DNA of 64,000 nucleotides. It comes from an uncultured Kordiimonas sp. Its GTDB lineage: Bacteria > Pseudomonadota > Alphaproteobacteria > Sphingomonadales > Kordiimonadaceae. Below the pieces are notes generated by a model. That model was not told the DNA's origin, searched no databases, and was given only the letters and a program-made list of their open reading frames with translations. Position numbers and translations under genes: made by a program. Positions 33,997-40,070 of the stretch are shown here, piece by piece. The stretch lies in the NCBI GenBank assembly GCA_947492375.1, contig CANLMI010000004.1, forward strand, positions 186,001 through 250,000, read 5' to 3'. The number at the start of each line of letters is the position of its first letter. Positions within the stretch are counted from its first letter, which is position 1.

Positions 33997-34197
33997 AGGC
34001 TTTGAAGGAATGGCTATCGTGACTCGGGCTGGTTTTTTTCGTTGAATTTAAAGTATTCGGTCTTTTCGAGTTTGGGAATGCTGTTGCGATAAGAAGTTTT
34101 TTACTTGCGACAAAGTGCAAATAGTATCATAGCGAAACTAAATCTATATTCATTGATCAGTTAAAAACGAACTATTATTTTGAAGGAGTTGCATAAC

Positions 34198-34620
34198 ATG
34201 ACACGTAAAGCGCGCGTTAAATGGGCTGGTGATATGACATTCATAGGCGAATCGCCGTCAGGTCATGCGGTTGTGATGGATTCAGGTTCTGCGGATGGCG
34301 GTCTTGATCACGGTATTCGCCCTATGGAAATGCTCCTTCTTGGTATGGGGGGCTGTGCCAGTATTGATGTTATGTTGATTTTGAAAAAAGCACGCCAGAA
34401 TGTTATTGATGCCTGGGTTGAATTGGAGGGCGAACGGGCCGATGATCATCCAAGATACTTTACAAAAATTCACGCGCACTTTGTTATTAAAGGTACTGAC
34501 ATTGCGAGCCATCATGTTGAGCGTGCGATCGAACTTTCACAGGAAAAATACTGTTCCGCTTCTGTACAATTAGGGGCACTTGCTAAAATCACGACAAGCT
34601 ATGAGGTAATCGAGGCTTAA
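34198..34620 (+). CDS. OsmC family protein
   Basis: A 140-residue protein of the OsmC/Ohr superfamily, thiol peroxidases that use a cysteine pair against organic hydroperoxides. The two cysteines are in GMGGCASIDVML and in EKYCSASVQLG, each in its usual context, so the protein should be redox active. AAGGAG nine bases before the ATG at 34198 sets the start; the frame opens at 34180. It lies between two GST genes, suggesting a thiol stress neighbourhood. Confidence 0.87.
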   Translation: MTRKARVKWAGDMTFIGESPSGHAVVMDSGSADGGLDHGIRPMEMLLLGMGGCASIDVMLILKKARQNVIDAWVELEGERADDHPRYFTKIHAHFVIKGTDIASHHVERAIELSQEKYCSASVQLGALAKITTSYEVIEA

Positions 34621-34734
34621 TGCTTTTTGCTCACAATAAAGAGAGCGCAGATAATGATGGTTGTAATGTGAGGCACTGATCATAAATACTCTGCATAATA
34701 GTTCTAAATATTGAAATGCTTGAGGGAGTTTATC

Positions 34735-35610
34735 ATGATAGATACAGAATACACACCGCCAAAGGTATGGAAATGGAATACTGAAAACGGTGGTAACTGG
34801 GCCAGTATAAATCGCCCGATTGCTGGTGCGACAAGCGAGAAAGAGTTACCCGTTGGAAAGCACCCGCTTCAGTTATATTCACTCGCAACTCCCAACGGTG
34901 TAAAAGTAACCATGATGCTCGAAGAGTTATTGGAATTGGGCCATAAAGGCGCAGAGTATGATGCGTACCTTATCAATATTGGTGATGGTGATCAGTTTGG
35001 TAGTGGGTTTGTCGATATCAATCCCAATTCAAAGATACCCGCCTTGATGGACCGCAGTGGGGATACGCCGACACGCGTTTTTGAATCTGGTTCTATCCTT
35101 TTGTATCTTGCCGAAAAATTTGGCGCTCTTTTACCAACAGATCCGGCGAAACGTGTTCAATGTATGAACTGGTTGTTTTGGCAAATGGGAAGCGCCCCTT
35201 ATCTTGGCGGTGGATTTGGGCATTTTTACACGTATGCTCCTATAAAAATAGAGTATTGCGTTGACCGGTTCGCAATGGAAGTAAAGCGCCAGCTTGATGT
35301 ACTTGACCGCCATTTGGCGGATAATCGTTTTATGGCGGGTGATGAATATACTATCGCTGATATTGCTATTTGGCCTTGGTATGGTGCGTTGGTTGCAAAT
35401 CGAATTTATGAGGCAGCAGAATTTTTAAGTACACATGAATACGAACATGTAAACCGCTGGGAAAAAGAGATTGGCGAGCGGCCGGCTGCCCAGCGTGGTA
35501 AAATGGTAAACCGTGCGTGGGGTGAGCTGAATGAGCAACTACGTGAGCGCCATGATGCCAGCGACTTTGAACTGCGTACGCAAGATAAGTTAGAGCCAGC
35601 AGAAGATTAA
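34735..35610 (+). CDS. yghU: YghU-like glutathione S-transferase (disulfide-bond oxidoreductase)
   Basis: A 291-residue protein matching the YghU/Nu-class GSTs, which reduce disulfides with two bound glutathiones. Family marks are PPKVWKWNTENGG, NRPIAGATSEKELPVGKHPLQLYSLATPNG and TRVFESGSILLYLAEKFG. The ATG at 34735 is preceded by GGGAG with a six-base spacer. It follows the OsmC gene on the same strand with a 114-base gap. Confidence 0.9.
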   Translation: MIDTEYTPPKVWKWNTENGGNWASINRPIAGATSEKELPVGKHPLQLYSLATPNGVKVTMMLEELLELGHKGAEYDAYLINIGDGDQFGSGFVDINPNSKIPALMDRSGDTPTRVFESGSILLYLAEKFGALLPTDPAKRVQCMNWLFWQMGSAPYLGGGFGHFYTYAPIKIEYCVDRFAMEVKRQLDVLDRHLADNRFMAGDEYTIADIAIWPWYGALVANRIYEAAEFLSTHEYEHVNRWEKEIGERPAAQRGKMVNRAWGELNEQLRERHDASDFELRTQDKLEPAED

Positions 35611-35634: not shown

Positions 35635-35670
35635 CAGGGCTATGTTTGATGCCCTGTGCGTCGCTTTTTA
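35635..35670 (+). terminator. Possible terminator after the YghU-like gene
   Basis: A 6-bp stem CAGGGC / GCCCTG with a ten-base loop, followed by TGCGTCGCTTTTTA on the plus strand. It overlaps the 3' end of the convergent membrane-protein gene. Confidence 0.4.
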
Positions 35671-36149
35671 AAATAACTATGGCCGCCAATTGTTGCGGCA
35701 ATAGTTGCTGTAACCAGCCCAAATAAAAATAATGTAAGCTTTAGGATAGTTAGAATAACCTTTAGCTCATAGAGTTCGGCAGTGTCTGTTAACAACAGAA
35801 CCTGAACTAACCCCTCCGATAAATCAACAGGTATCACAACCAAACTTGGTAAGGCTAAAACGGGGCCCCATTTGCCGAGAAATCTGAGGTTCAAGCTTAT
35901 AAACAGGGTTCCGTATGCAAAGGGGTACAAAATATCGAGAGAGGCTGTAGTCCACGCATGCGCCAATTTTTGTGTATCGGTCATGGCTGTGAGGTGTTGT
36001 TTTAAGGCTTCTACATCATATATTTCGTCAATGACTTCAAAATTCCAATAAGCCATTACCGTGATGAAACCAATTGATACAATCATTGTCGCTATAAAAG
36101 CAAACCATGTGGTTTTAGGTTTTAGTAAAGCGTTCTTTAATTCAATCAT
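35640..36149 (-). CDS. Four-helix membrane protein of unknown function
   Basis: A 169-residue protein with four hydrophobic segments (about 13-34, 70-88, 96-112 and 127-150) and a basic C-terminus ending FKKRRTG, consistent with an inner-membrane protein whose ends are cytoplasmic. I do not recognise a family. It starts six bases after the HExxH gene's stop and is the last gene of a five-gene minus-strand operon. Weak ribosome site. Confidence 0.6.
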   Translation of the reverse strand: MIELKNALLKPKTTWFAFIATMIVSIGFITVMAYWNFEVIDEIYDVEALKQHLTAMTDTQKLAHAWTTASLDILYPFAYGTLFISLNLRFLGKWGPVLALPSLVVIPVDLSEGLVQVLLLTDTAELYELKVILTILKLTLFLFGLVTATIAATIGGHSYFKKRRTGHQT

Positions 36150-36155
36150 TTAATT

Positions 36156-36899
36156 TTATGTACGTTTGGTTTTTAAATTATAGCTAATTGCTTTACGGAG
36201 TAATTTATATAAATGTGGTTTCACATAGGGTTTTATCGCCGTGACGTCTTCGGGTTTATTGCTAAAAATTTTTGATATACCGTATATTATTTCCCACTCA
36301 TTTAGATAACCACCGCCAGTAATCTTCCAACCTTGGCTATACGGGTCAGTGTGTTGAGAGAAATTAAAACGGGAATTAGCTAAAAAGAGACCAAATCCGC
36401 TAGTAATTGCAAACATGTCTGTGAGGTGTTCTTCTTCATCGTGATCCCCCAAACGTATTTTATTGCTAGTAAGTAAAATATAATGACATAGCTCATGTGC
36501 GAGTGTTGCTATAAGGTTTGTTGTGTCATTTAACAAATGTGGTGCATAGTTTATTATGGCTTTGCCATCTGAAGTATAGTCAAATTCAAAAGAACCTAAT
36601 GGTCTTGTTGGCGCGTTTTCTAAAATAACTGTTTCAGATACTCGCGGGTCTGTATCTTTTTCTTGAGCTATTAATTGGCACGGCCAATCTTCAATACTCA
36701 TAAGTTTCTTAATTACATTTAAAATAGCTTCGGCACGTTCATGCCCTGATTTTGGTAAGTCTCCAAAAAAATACTTTGTGGGTAAAATAATCTCTTCAGC
36801 ATAATTGAAATTATGAATTAACCAATTATACTGGCTGTCTATCCAATATTCTTGGTTATGATCGACGATGTTTTTTGGTTTGAATAATCTTTTAAGCAT
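36156..36899 (-). CDS. HExxH zinc-metallopeptidase-like protein
   Basis: A 247-residue protein with a HELCH metal motif (H135, E136, H139) inside LIATLAHELCHYILL, followed by an acidic run and EHLTD around residues 155-161 that could give the third ligand. This layout recalls ImmA/IrrE-like or minimal gluzincin peptidases, but no full family match is claimed. No signal peptide is visible. The ATG at 36899 has a G-rich ribosome site four bases away. The gene is AT-rich compared with its neighbours. It belongs to the five-gene operon with the HD hydrolase. Confidence 0.6.
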   Translation of the reverse strand: MLKRLFKPKNIVDHNQEYWIDSQYNWLIHNFNYAEEIILPTKYFFGDLPKSGHERAEAILNVIKKLMSIEDWPCQLIAQEKDTDPRVSETVILENAPTRPLGSFEFDYTSDGKAIINYAPHLLNDTTNLIATLAHELCHYILLTSNKIRLGDHDEEEHLTDMFAITSGFGLFLANSRFNFSQHTDPYSQGWKITGGGYLNEWEIIYGISKIFSNKPEDVTAIKPYVKPHLYKLLRKAISYNLKTKRT

Positions 36900-36932
36900 C
36901 TTGCCCCCCATGCTTTATTCTAGTTTATGGTA

Positions 36933-37121
36933 TCATCCGTCGACAACTTCAATAATACCTGCCCAGGCGATAGATTTGTCGCGTGACAGCTTATCTTCTA
37001 TGCTTTCTGCAAGTTTTTTATCTGCTGTCGTATGTTCTGAATACTTGGATTGACCGTCGGAAAAGTCATAGAAAACCTCGTGCCCGTCAATTTCGTGCAA
37101 AACTGCATATTTGATCGCCAT
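36933..37121 (-). CDS. 62-residue conserved-looking small protein
   Basis: A small acidic protein (starts MAIKYAVLHEIDGHEV) with no family I recognise. It is credible as a gene because AAAGGA lies six bases before its ATG, inside the last codons of the HD hydrolase gene, and its start is two bases past that gene's stop, a typical coupled arrangement. It ends 33 bases before the HExxH gene. It might be a partner or modulator of either neighbour. Confidence 0.6.
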   Translation of the reverse strand: MAIKYAVLHEIDGHEVFYDFSDGQSKYSEHTTADKKLAESIEDKLSRDKSIAWAGIIEVVDG

Positions 37122-37123
37122 TT

Positions 37124-37651
37124 TTAATCCTTTGCCCTAGAGCTATAGTATTGATCGAGTAAAGCCTTTGCTTGGCTATATAATTGCTTATCGCCTTTCG
37201 TTAGAACATTTAGCAATTCTTTTTTCTCGGCCATGTATACTTTTGCAAAACCCGGGTCGTGCTCTACAATTGATCTGGTATTGCTGATGAGGTCCGCTAG
37301 TTTGATTGTTTGGCCTTCTGCATCGGCCTTGGCTACGTGGTCTCTATCGATTGCTTTGCGGGTTTTGCGGTTTCCGTCTGCCAAGGTGCTAACATCGGTA
37401 ACCATATCGACCAAATCAGCGATTCGGCCCCCGAACAAGTTGGCAATCTGGTTTTTTGTAATGTCGCAGTCTTCAATAGTATCATGCAAAAGCCCGGCAA
37501 TTTGTGCATCTTCACTCATGCCGCGTTCTTTTAATATATGCGCCACTTCGAAGGGGTGCACATGGTAAGGCTCGTCAGTATATTTGCGTTGTTGGCCTTT
37601 GTGCCACTCTTTGCATTTTTCGCGCGCGAGATTAAGTAAACTGTTGGTCAT
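37124..37651 (-). CDS. Small HD-domain hydrolase, MESH1/SpoT-hydrolase-like
   Basis: A 175-residue single-domain HD protein. H32 in YHVHPFEVA, H56-D57 in LLHDTIEDCDIT with E60 and D61, and D120 with N124 in IKLADLISNTR match the metal and guanine-pocket pattern of small alarmone hydrolases that cut (p)ppGpp; no synthetase domain is attached. A nucleotide other than ppGpp is possible. The ATG at 37651 is chosen because the longer frame (GTG at 37717) overlaps the upstream gene and is not family sequence. Its ribosome site is weak, suggesting coupling to the upstream gene. Confidence 0.8.
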   Translation of the reverse strand: MTNSLLNLAREKCKEWHKGQQRKYTDEPYHVHPFEVAHILKERGMSEDAQIAGLLHDTIEDCDITKNQIANLFGGRIADLVDMVTDVSTLADGNRKTRKAIDRDHVAKADAEGQTIKLADLISNTRSIVEHDPGFAKVYMAEKKELLNVLTKGDKQLYSQAKALLDQYYSSRAKD

Positions 37652-37664
37652 AGTGCTCTGCCGT

Positions 37665-38210
37665 TTATGAGAATAATCCGAATCCAAGCATATGATCCAG
37701 ATAGATAGTTGCATCACGGATATCGAAAATAAATGAGAAAATAATGACTGCTGTAATCAAGCCTGACCAGTATTTGTAAAATGATTTTTCACCCATAAAT
37801 GGTTTGTTTTTTATCATCAAATAAAGCCCCGGTGTCCATGTGAGTATATGGATAAGTGCATAAAGGCCGCCAAGCGGTAGCATGTCAATTGCAGGGGCGA
37901 TAAAGAAAGCACACATAATTGTTGTGATCATGCCGCCAACAACCCAGCGTGCTTCAACGCGCTTCCAAACAAAGAAAAGCCCCAATACGAAGCTTAAAGA
38001 CATAAAGTTTATCCAGTATTTAACCCATGTTGGGGTTGTGGTGTCGGCGTCTTTATTGAAAAGCTCGAGGGCACCGTGTCCAGGTTGATATGCCAGTTGT
38101 TCGGTGTTTGTTACTATGTCGGGTGTTGATTGTGCTTCCACGCCAAATCCAGGCGAATACATACTTAAAACGAAAACGCTAATAGCGAAAAGGTAGGATA
38201 AATTTTTCAT
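37665..38210 (-). CDS. Membrane protein with signal peptide, unknown function
   Basis: A 181-residue protein with an N-terminal signal-like segment (residues 5-22) and about three further hydrophobic helices (75-90, 98-125 and 145-162). It has no family I recognise. GAGGGG five bases before the ATG is a strong ribosome site, consistent with being the first gene of the five-gene operon. Its stop is 13 bases before the HD hydrolase start. Confidence 0.6.
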   Translation of the reverse strand: MKNLSYLFAISVFVLSMYSPGFGVEAQSTPDIVTNTEQLAYQPGHGALELFNKDADTTTPTWVKYWINFMSLSFVLGLFFVWKRVEARWVVGGMITTIMCAFFIAPAIDMLPLGGLYALIHILTWTPGLYLMIKNKPFMGEKSFYKYWSGLITAVIIFSFIFDIRDATIYLDHMLGFGLFS

Positions 38211-38282: not shown

Positions 38283-40070
38283 TTATGAAACTGGTGCGGT
38301 AGCTGCCTTTAACCAATCTAATGTTTCTGGCAAAACTAAACCCTTAACGTTCTTATAAACTGTTTGATGGTAATCATTTAACCAATTAATTTCATCTGGT
38401 GTCATGATCGAGGTATCAATGAGATTCCTGTCAATCGGTGCCCATGTAAGGTTTTCAAACTCGTACATTGTGCGCTCTGTATCACCGCCTACGCTTTTTA
38501 CCAGAACTAAATTTTCAATACGGATGCCGTATTCACCGGCTTTATAATACCCTGGTTCGTTCGAGAGAATCATACCTGGTTCAAGGTGAACGGGGCTGCC
38601 AAATTTTGCAATACGCTGTGGCCCTTCATGGACCGCGAGGAAAGAACCAACGCCGTGGCCTGTTCCGTGATCATAATCCAGGCCTGCTTCCCAAAGGGGG
38701 CGACGTGCGATGCTGTCAATCGAATGGCCTGATGTTCCTTTCGGGAACTTGGTCGTCGATAAGGCAATATGACCCTTTAAAACGCGGGTGAAGCGATCTT
38801 TCATTTCATCTGTGGGCGTGCCCACAATGACTGTTCGGGTAATATCGGTGGTACCGTCCAGGTATTGTCCGCCGCTATCAACGAGATAAATGCTATCCAT
38901 CTCCAGTTTTCGGTTTGTCTCAACGCTGGCGCGGTAATGAACAATAGCACCGTTTGGCCCAGCGCCTGATATGGTATCAAAGCTTTTATCACGTAAGAGG
39001 TCATTAAATCGGCTGCGGCACGCCCATAGCTTGTCGATGGCTTTCAATTCATCGACAGACCCTTTTGGTGCTTCAATTGATAACCAGTGAAGGAAATCAC
39101 TAATCGCGGCGCCGTCGCGGATATGGGCATCACGCGAGCCTTGTTGCTCGTGCTGGTTTTTTACGGCCTTGCGTATGATACAGGGGTCGCTGGCTTTGAC
39201 GATCTTGGCGTCTGACTGTTTTAGCGCTTCAAATACCTTCGCATTATTGCTGTTTGGATCAGCGATTACAGACTTTCCAGCTTTCCCAAGCTCGGAAAGG
39301 TGGTCATAAAAAGCTGTGCGCGGCTTTATCTCAACACTGTTGCCAAGGTGTAGACGAAGGGCATCGTCAACCTTTTGTTCATGCACGAATAAAACAGCAC
39401 TTTCATCTGCGTTTAATATCGCAAATGTATGCGGTACAGGGGTGTTCTCTACGTCACTACCCCGGATGTTGAAAGCCCATGCAACACTGTCGAGCATCGT
39501 GATAACAGCGGCGTCTGCGTTTTCATTTTTTAAAAAGCAGGCAATATCGCTGCGTTTTTCGCTTGCAGATTGGCCAGCATATTCAACCGGGTGCGGTGTA
39601 ACGATATTGAGTGGTTCAGATGGTTGGTCCTGCCATACAGCATCAATCGGGTTTTTCTGAACGGCAACAAGCTCGATGTTTTTCTTGGCAAAGATATGGT
39701 TAGCAGTTTTTTGCCAATCGATTGTGGTTAATTCAGCGTCATAGCCAATACGGGCATTGTTTTCGCTGTTATCCAGCGTCCAATTTAAAAGCGGATACTC
39801 TTCAAAATGAAAGTCATTGAAAACCGTAGTATCAACCTGATCTTTCACTTGCAAAGTATAACGGCCATCAACAAAAATTGCGGCTTGCTCTGATAAAACA
39901 ACAGCATTGCCAGCCGAACCTTCAAAGCCTGATATCCATGCAAGGCGCTGTGCATAACTACCGACATATTCACTCATGTGTTCGTCAGTAAGGGGAATGA
40001 TAAATCCATCAAGCTTTTGATGTTTTAATTCTTCCCGTAATGCTGCAATCCTTGCTGGGTTGGTTGCCAT
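38283..40070 (-). CDS. Aminopeptidase P family protein (M24B)
   Basis: A 595-residue cytoplasmic metallopeptidase of the long, three-domain Xaa-Pro aminopeptidase type. Two creatinase-like N-terminal domains are followed by the pita-bread catalytic domain, whose metal ligands are seen in VDSGGQYLDGTTDITRT (two Asp), HGTGHGVGSFL (His), NEPGYY (Glu) and GIRIENL (Glu). It removes N-terminal residues before proline. AAGGA eight bases upstream supports the start. It is divergent from the oligopeptidase B gene. Confidence 0.93.
   Translation of the reverse strand: MATNPARIAALREELKHQKLDGFIIPLTDEHMSEYVGSYAQRLAWISGFEGSAGNAVVLSEQAAIFVDGRYTLQVKDQVDTTVFNDFHFEEYPLLNWTLDNSENNARIGYDAELTTIDWQKTANHIFAKKNIELVAVQKNPIDAVWQDQPSEPLNIVTPHPVEYAGQSASEKRSDIACFLKNENADAAVITMLDSVAWAFNIRGSDVENTPVPHTFAILNADESAVLFVHEQKVDDALRLHLGNSVEIKPRTAFYDHLSELGKAGKSVIADPNSNNAKVFEALKQSDAKIVKASDPCIIRKAVKNQHEQQGSRDAHIRDGAAISDFLHWLSIEAPKGSVDELKAIDKLWACRSRFNDLLRDKSFDTISGAGPNGAIVHYRASVETNRKLEMDSIYLVDSGGQYLDGTTDITRTVIVGTPTDEMKDRFTRVLKGHIALSTTKFPKGTSGHSIDSIARRPLWEAGLDYDHGTGHGVGSFLAVHEGPQRIAKFGSPVHLEPGMILSNEPGYYKAGEYGIRIENLVLVKSVGGDTERTMYEFENLTWAPIDRNLIDTSIMTPDEINWLNDYHQTVYKNVKGLVLPETLDWLKAATAPVS

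Follow-up and report, generated by a model that had tools for sequence, protein, structure and literature searches.

In an uncultured Kordiimonas species, a 64,000-nucleotide stretch of DNA (contig CANLMI010000004.1, positions 186,001 to 250,000; henceforth the window) carries five closely spaced genes on the minus strand. They encode a membrane protein (TM1), a small HD-domain hydrolase (HD), a 62-residue protein (sm62), a protein with an HExxH zinc motif (the HExxH protein) and a second membrane protein (TM2). We conclude that these genes are very probably cargo, assembled locally, in a slot of variable content that lies between two convergent core genes, pepP and osmC. The gene run is real and ordinary; its interest lies in the HExxH family and in a phage-type small alarmone hydrolase (SAH), not in the operon. 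More generally, the locus illustrates how genes that make a convincing operon may have been pieced together locally, here from a two-gene core common to the genus and from added pieces. Genes of the slot and its borders are as follows, in the order in which the minus-strand run is read.

pepP, 38283-40070, minus strand: M24 aminopeptidase (Pfam M24), a conserved gene that bounds the variable slot upstream.
TM1, 37665-38210, minus strand: 181-aa membrane protein with a signal-like N-terminal segment and further hydrophobic segments.
HD, 37124-37651, minus strand: 175 aa counted from ATG, small alarmone hydrolase (HD_4) of the phage/plasmid type (phrog_990).
sm62, 36933-37121, minus strand: 62-aa protein with convincing relatives confined to the genus.
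HExxH, 36156-36899 (247 aa) or 36156-36911 (251 aa), minus strand: partly minigluzincin-like protein with HELCH and Glu161.
TM2, 35640-36149, minus strand: 169-aa membrane protein, common to the congener G001.
yghU-type glutathione (GSH)-dependent disulfide oxidoreductase, 34711-35610, plus strand: PRK11752 above the NCBIfam cut-off, a convergent neighbour.
osmC, 34180-34620, plus strand: OsmC-like protein (Pfam OsmC), the conserved downstream border of the slot.

A variable slot between pepP and osmC

pepP was matched in all 29 genomes of the family, with an E value of 1e-200 or better in 28 of them, and, of the 28 family genomes other than the own one, 19 were surveyed for pepP with its downstream DNA. 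At 16 of these 19 loci, osmC is found convergent with pepP within the fetched stretch, at an interval (measured between match ends) of 14 to 2869 bases, as against 3662 bases in the window. At the remaining three (L073, L074 and L084) osmC was not in the fetched stretch. Four of the 16 intervals hold no open reading frame (ORF) of at least 60 aa. Three loci carry a gene for an Xre/MbcA/ParS-type antitoxin together with a partner of 230-240 aa (L068 2094-3220, L069 10139-11265 and L083 2216-3369). The L069 antitoxin is 98% identical to that of L068, while the L068 and L083 partners are 31% identical and match no Pfam model at E 0.001. In genome G026 (L079 2104-4557) the slot is occupied by a lone 817-aa protein, in which a SIR2-like domain similar to ThsA is accompanied by a STAND-NTPase-like stretch that scores at the cut-off. 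Other cargo includes genes for a chemotaxis receptor, an M23 peptidase, a beta-lactamase-like protein and a metallophosphatase.

Fixed borders, genome-specific cargo and some empty intervals make this region similar to known slots in which convergent core genes enclose variable cargo. It differs from them in that no tRNA gene occurs in the window and that neither inverted repeats nor convincing flanking direct repeats were found at the slot. Three two-copy repeat families of 16-20 bases were considered as marks of the slot and set aside as likely chance.

Gene order in a congener

In G001, the sole congener compared, the order is pepP, sm62 (77% identical), TM2 (52%, directly after sm62), yghU (93%) and osmC, and TM1, HD and the HExxH gene are not at that place. 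sm62 and TM2 overlap in G001 (TAATG), and the HExxH gene of the window lies exactly between the two. Neither G001 nor the 27 other family genomes has an intact stand-alone HD or a match to the HExxH protein anywhere, leaving the own genome (G000) as the only one of 29 with either. In the class, the HExxH protein is found in four of 385 genomes, the own one included; its distribution is patchy.

Assuming gains, the slot would have been filled in at least two steps. pepP would at first have adjoined osmC; sm62, TM2 and yghU would have been added in the genus; then, in the species, TM1 and HD would have been placed before sm62 and, separately, the HExxH gene between sm62 and TM2. We infer this direction from the single congener and from the lack of HD and the HExxH gene in 27 further genomes.

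Absence of the partner genes at other loci

The original prediction envisaged a joint stress or defence module and proposed to look for the same five genes in unrelated lineages. Homologues were found but did not recur together. When 84 HExxH loci were searched with the other four proteins at E 1, the only hit was a chance-level HD match (E 0.63), weak pepP and GST matches having come from flank queries. Similarly, no partner gene was detected at E 0.01 at 29 TM1, 10 HD and 4 TM2 loci, where just two weak GST-type matches were seen. The TM1 loci are 2.5-3.5 kb long and include one overlapping pair, and of the TM2 loci no more than two are convincing. The 741 ORFs neighbouring HExxH genes in 80 loci cluster mainly among close relatives, the largest shared cluster covering 5 loci. 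None of the five proteins was matched by PADLOC (2023 library) at E 1. With no partner in the flanks of any of these 84, 29, 10 and 4 loci, and with three of the five genes absent from this place in G001, a conserved five-gene module was rejected and the proposed joint role was not borne out.

An alternative is a young, lineage-specific functional unit. Such a unit might serve, for example, in anti-phage or stress control, with HD clearing a signal nucleotide and the HExxH protein cleaving a target at the membrane proteins. The hints in its favour are indirect: the genes are spaced as in an operon, three other genomes have an Xre/MbcA/ParS-type antitoxin gene in the same slot, and one has a SIR2-like protein there. 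Set against this are the lack of any PADLOC match, the failure of any pair to co-occur at the other loci examined and the occurrence of HExxH relatives without the partners in seven phyla; the HExxH protein thus seems to work without them elsewhere. We hold a unit of this kind to be highly improbable. As independent cargo of the pepP-osmC slot, the five proteins would most likely act separately.

Spacing and composition of the gene run

A re-check of the ORFs agreed with the initial description of the run in all respects. The five genes lie on the minus strand with gaps of 13, 2, 33 and 6 bases in the order TM1, HD, sm62, HExxH and TM2 (the third gap being counted from an HExxH start at 36899), and the ribosome site of sm62, AAGGA, sits in the last codons of HD. 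The mechanical ORF of HD extends back to a GTG at 37717. For the HExxH gene, the ATG at 36899, located after a run of six G, is the probable start, as it gives a better match to the N-terminus of the family than 36911. Transcription of the five genes may be shared, since the gaps within the run are as short as 2 to 33 bases. Runs of same-strand genes with short gaps are common in bacteria, and on their own do not demonstrate a functional unit. Neither promoter-like sites (13 versus 11.7 in shuffles) nor terminator-like sites (6 versus 5.1) are in clear excess, and no RNA family reached its gathering cut-off in the window.

The background for base composition consisted of the window's mechanical ORFs with a length of 90 aa or more, 61 in number. 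Among them, the HExxH gene exceeds all others in AT content, with a GC content of 0.351 (z -3.1) and a GC content at third codon positions (GC3) of 0.290 (z -2.9). HD deviates in the opposite direction (GC3 0.477, z +2.7), and the GC3 of sm62, TM1 and TM2 is within one standard deviation of the window mean.

Several observations count against local assembly by gain. A codon-adaptation-like index marks none of the five genes (z -1.6 to +1.0; HExxH +1.0, HD -1.6, TM2 -1.1). The signs of foreign origin are thus mixed and composition is not strong proof of recent transfer, so that of the original proposal for the HExxH gene the AT-richness stands, whereas the evidence for a recent acquisition is equivocal. 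The tight spacing, including the sm62 ribosome site within HD, would permit real coupling. The flanks of the loci searched for partners are limited: they extend over some 1.5 to 6 kb, part of them being cut, with about 1.5 kb per side at loci retrieved by genome search and at most 5 kb at those from the genome collection, where 56 of 80 loci are at least 10 kb long. The search for TM1 and TM2 families covered the 19 fetched pepP loci and the class sample. Co-occurrence across whole genomes was sampled only: relatives of the HExxH protein and TM1 were seen in G151, of TM1 and HD in G092 and of TM1 and TM2 in G119, each time on different contigs, and these are single cases that carry no statistics.

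Finally, there is a single congener, and TM1, HD and the HExxH gene might have been lost in G001 rather than gained in the species, the five-gene operon then being ancestral to the genus. That the genus is represented by two genomes, of which G001 is the smaller (3.5 versus 3.9 Mb), and that the codon index shows no foreign mark would fit such a history. However, it requires two separate clean deletions, one on either side of sm62, it leaves HD and HExxH biased oppositely in GC3, and it has to accommodate 27 other family genomes without an intact stand-alone HD and without the HExxH gene. We consider it unlikely, and retain local assembly in the slot as the explanation of the run.

By sequence and fold, HD is a small alarmone hydrolase of the phage and plasmid type

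HD matches the Pfam model HD_4 at 5e-19 and the phage family phrog_990 at 2e-40. HD_4 and HD are the only Pfam models matched at E 1; RelA_SpoT (PF04607) is not matched, as expected of a stand-alone hydrolase domain. In a sequence search against solved structures, Lmo0812 came out best, followed by Rel enzymes and then by MESH1. Residues R22, H32, H56, D57, E60, D61, K117, D120 and N124 are invariant in all 11 rows of an alignment that combined phage-type relatives with five hydrolase domains of RelA/SpoT homologues (RSH) from the family; going by work on RSH enzymes, these residues make up the hydrolase pocket. An AlphaFold2 (AF2) model of HD has a pLDDT of 93.4 and is aligned by Foldseek with Drosophila MESH1 (3nqw; E 5e-7, TM 0.86) and with human MESH1 (TM 0.85). 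Because invariant residues and fold agree, the pocket can be regarded as present, and the MESH1-like residue pattern recognized from the sequence at the outset is upheld. By sequence and fold, HD is an SAH of the MESH1/SpoT type, with a predicted activity: it would remove the 3'-pyrophosphate (or a 2'/3'-phosphate) from alarmone-like nucleotides with the help of a metal, which is Mn in characterised relatives.

Like the known SAHs MESH1, PaSAH, RelH of C. glutamicum and XccSAH, HD is a stand-alone HD domain with HDxxED and KxADxxxN motifs, and its fold is similar to theirs, with a TMq of 0.83-0.86 to MESH1 and RelH and of 0.76-0.78 to PaSAH (6yvc). By contrast, the fold alignments listed put its identity to solved SAHs of the stand-alone kind at only 19-29%, and by sequence it groups with phage and plasmid proteins. 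In assays with Mn, SAHs characterised so far act on (p)ppGpp and (p)ppApp, and some of them cleave NADPH as well (PMC9765508, PMC7644958). SAHs are scattered across bacteria, a pattern that the authors of a further report read as horizontal gene transfer (PMC3153485). A phage SAH has been discussed earlier, its substrate preference being given as unknown (PMC12846349).

The closest relatives of HD that were found are a protein of Komagataeibacter phage phiKM1 (58% identical) and one on a viral contig (57%), and relatives on plasmids are mostly about 40-51% identical. Among 289 sampled genomes of the class, two others match at E 1e-22 or better, with identities of 50% and 40%, the latter within an unresolved 548-aa frame. 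A phage and plasmid group of small alarmone hydrolases is thus one by-product of this analysis. In phiKM1 (L254 4283-5462) the gene comes after a HicA/HicB-like pair, near a phage integrase. The family genome G004 has a fragmentary HD gene, interrupted by a stop (L085 7189-7449), within a few kb of genes that appear by eye to be IS transposase-like.

A second RelA_SpoT protein in the same genome

A search of the own genome with PF04607 gave two matches, one on contig C1 and one at 66 kb of contig C4, and none near HD (C4:223 kb). A toxSAS-SAH toxin-antitoxin pair was accordingly discarded, no alarmone synthetase gene adjoining HD. The second RelA_SpoT domain (residues 341-505) belongs to a 934-aa protein encoded on the same contig, 157 kb from HD, by a gene that is preceded by one for a 123-aa protein (L224 4724-7911, C4:64.7-67.9 kb). 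By eye, its neighbours are TraG/VirD4-like and resolvase-like, and the region is possibly cargo of a conjugative element. The 934-aa protein has a repeat-like C-terminus, also judged by eye, and a weak PADLOC match to PDC-S33 (E 5e-4). Its N-terminal GHG and DCC motifs look caspase-like; no caspase model of Pfam matched at E 0.01.

HD might act as an antidote to this protein, its place in the operon being incidental, a role that would be compatible with cargo assembled in the pepP-osmC slot. G000 alone among the 29 family genomes has a stand-alone HD that is intact, and it is also among the three in which PF04607 matches a second time, but this is a single co-occurrence: the other two, G024 and G025, have the second synthetase domain without a stand-alone HD. 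In addition, the two genes are far apart on the contig, and the activity of the 934-aa protein is itself predicted from sequence. We judge the antidote role to be very unlikely, and treat the toxSAS-antidote link as a lead, not as evidence.

A widespread HExxH family

The HELCH motif reported for the fourth gene was confirmed, at residues 139-143 (in the numbering of the 251-aa form, used throughout). A single-sequence scan of a genome collection of 84,980 species gave no match to the HExxH protein, whereas an alignment scan of the same collection retrieved 101 relatives, of which the best 80 were used. A tree was built from 83 rows of at least 200 aa, cut at 300, with one locus dropped. The relatives in this tree span seven phyla. 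Bacteroidota, Pseudomonadota and Actinomycetota each fall on one side of a branch, that of the Pseudomonadota not being fully supported, and the window protein forms a long branch among the Pseudomonadota, where its placement is unsure. One distant relative (28% identical) is located on a Persicobacter plasmid. The family was also considered as phage-borne, and this was rejected, as no relative was present among viral contigs or phage records.

Eleven residues are invariant in all 84 rows: G106, H139, E140, L141, H143, E161, T164, D165, G172, G201 and Y202. For H139-L141 the search pattern accounts for part of this invariance; the other invariant residues were not constrained by it. In addition, the family has a conserved N-terminal region of its own and a GYL motif. 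Among the 83 relatives collected, ten have a length of 449-487 aa (L124, L130, L131, L135, L140, L143, L146, L150, L152 and L153). Three of these long proteins were scanned, revealing C-terminal ankyrin repeats in the flavobacterial L124 and L135 and apparently HEAT repeats in L152 from Planctomycetia. A keyword search of the literature gave only work on polymorphic toxins; the family may nonetheless have been described in print. This widespread and little-described family, some members of which carry fused ankyrin or HEAT repeats, is a second by-product of the analysis and is directly testable for peptidase activity.

Relation of the HExxH protein to known metallopeptidases

The sequence of the HExxH protein matches no solved structure at E 1. 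Its AF2 model (pLDDT 89.8) places Glu161 in a helix formed by residues 157-181. Foldseek found no match to the model in the PDB at E 1e-3 (the best, to 6mdw, having an E value of 0.14) and nothing among viral models at the same threshold. With VIA-align, the highest rows were jannalysin (4jix; Z 7.8, rmsd 3.2, 99 residues), selecase (Z 7.6, rmsd 3.0, 99 residues), Ste24p (Z 7.5, rmsd 8.8, 149 residues) and SPRTN (Z 7.4, rmsd 3.9, 120 residues), with PprI at Z 5.2 (rmsd 3.9, 105 residues); the top rows are tied, score no higher than common arrangements do and may be due to chance, so that their ranking is not decisive. Low-ranking Foldseek rows, to unrelated human and other proteins, and lower VIA-align rows were treated as background.

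Minigluzincins are marked by an HExxH motif and a downstream helical Glu, and both are seen here: H143 and E161 are invariant in the 84 rows, and E161 is helical in the model. The term has been applied to Wss1 and Spartan (PMC4559962). We take the HExxH protein as a minigluzincin-like Zn enzyme, probably peptidase-like, in which His139, His143 and Glu161 would be the metal ligands and Glu140 the base. It resembles SprT/Spartan, the minigluzincins jannalysin and selecase, and IrrE/PprI (M78) in having an HExxH helix followed by a Glu in the next long helix, and perhaps in part of the fold. Unlike SprT and M78 members, it remains below the gathering cut-offs and has the N-terminal region and GYL motif of its own family. 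Assignment as SprT-like (PF10263) failed at 22.6 bits against a cut-off of 25.6, and assignment to peptidase M78/IrrE at 15.4 against 22 bits; in neither Pfam nor NCBIfam does the window protein score above a family's cut-off. Seventeen of 46 family members match the SprT-like model at E 0.01 or better, the best of them with the same E value as the window protein.

An aKG-HExxH peptide beta-hydroxylase was likewise rejected, the window protein having no match to TIGR04267 at E 1. Ten of the 46 members are weakly similar to this model near the HExxH helix (E 0.01 or better, best 2e-4), scoring at most 20.1 bits among the scores shown, against a cut-off of 40. The likeness to these hydroxylases is weak, limited to the surroundings of the HExxH helix and far under the cut-off, and a conceivable oxygenase role for the family would have no backing beyond it.

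These elements could also be combined into one scheme, with the slot as a defence island of the family and the five genes as a fresh cassette. HD would then remove a toxic or signalling nucleotide, possibly one made by the caspase-like RelA_SpoT protein, and the HExxH protein, as founder of an undescribed metallopeptidase family of seven phyla, would cleave an activated target at the membrane proteins. We give this scheme next to no credence, and prefer separately acting cargo.

Relatives of sm62, TM2 and TM1

Outside the genus, sm62 gave chance-level matches only, the best at E 0.1 in the 29 family genomes and at E 0.048 in the 289 class genomes, and no match at E 0.1 in phages or plasmids. 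No relative of TM1 or TM2 was found on plasmids. TM2 was matched in five of the 289 class genomes at E 0.01, the own genome included; two of the four others are convincing (51% identity in G119 and 32% in G211), at loci without the other four genes. TM1 is the most frequent of the three, with matches in 19 of the 289 class genomes at E 0.001, again counting the own genome, and several of these genomes carry paralogues.

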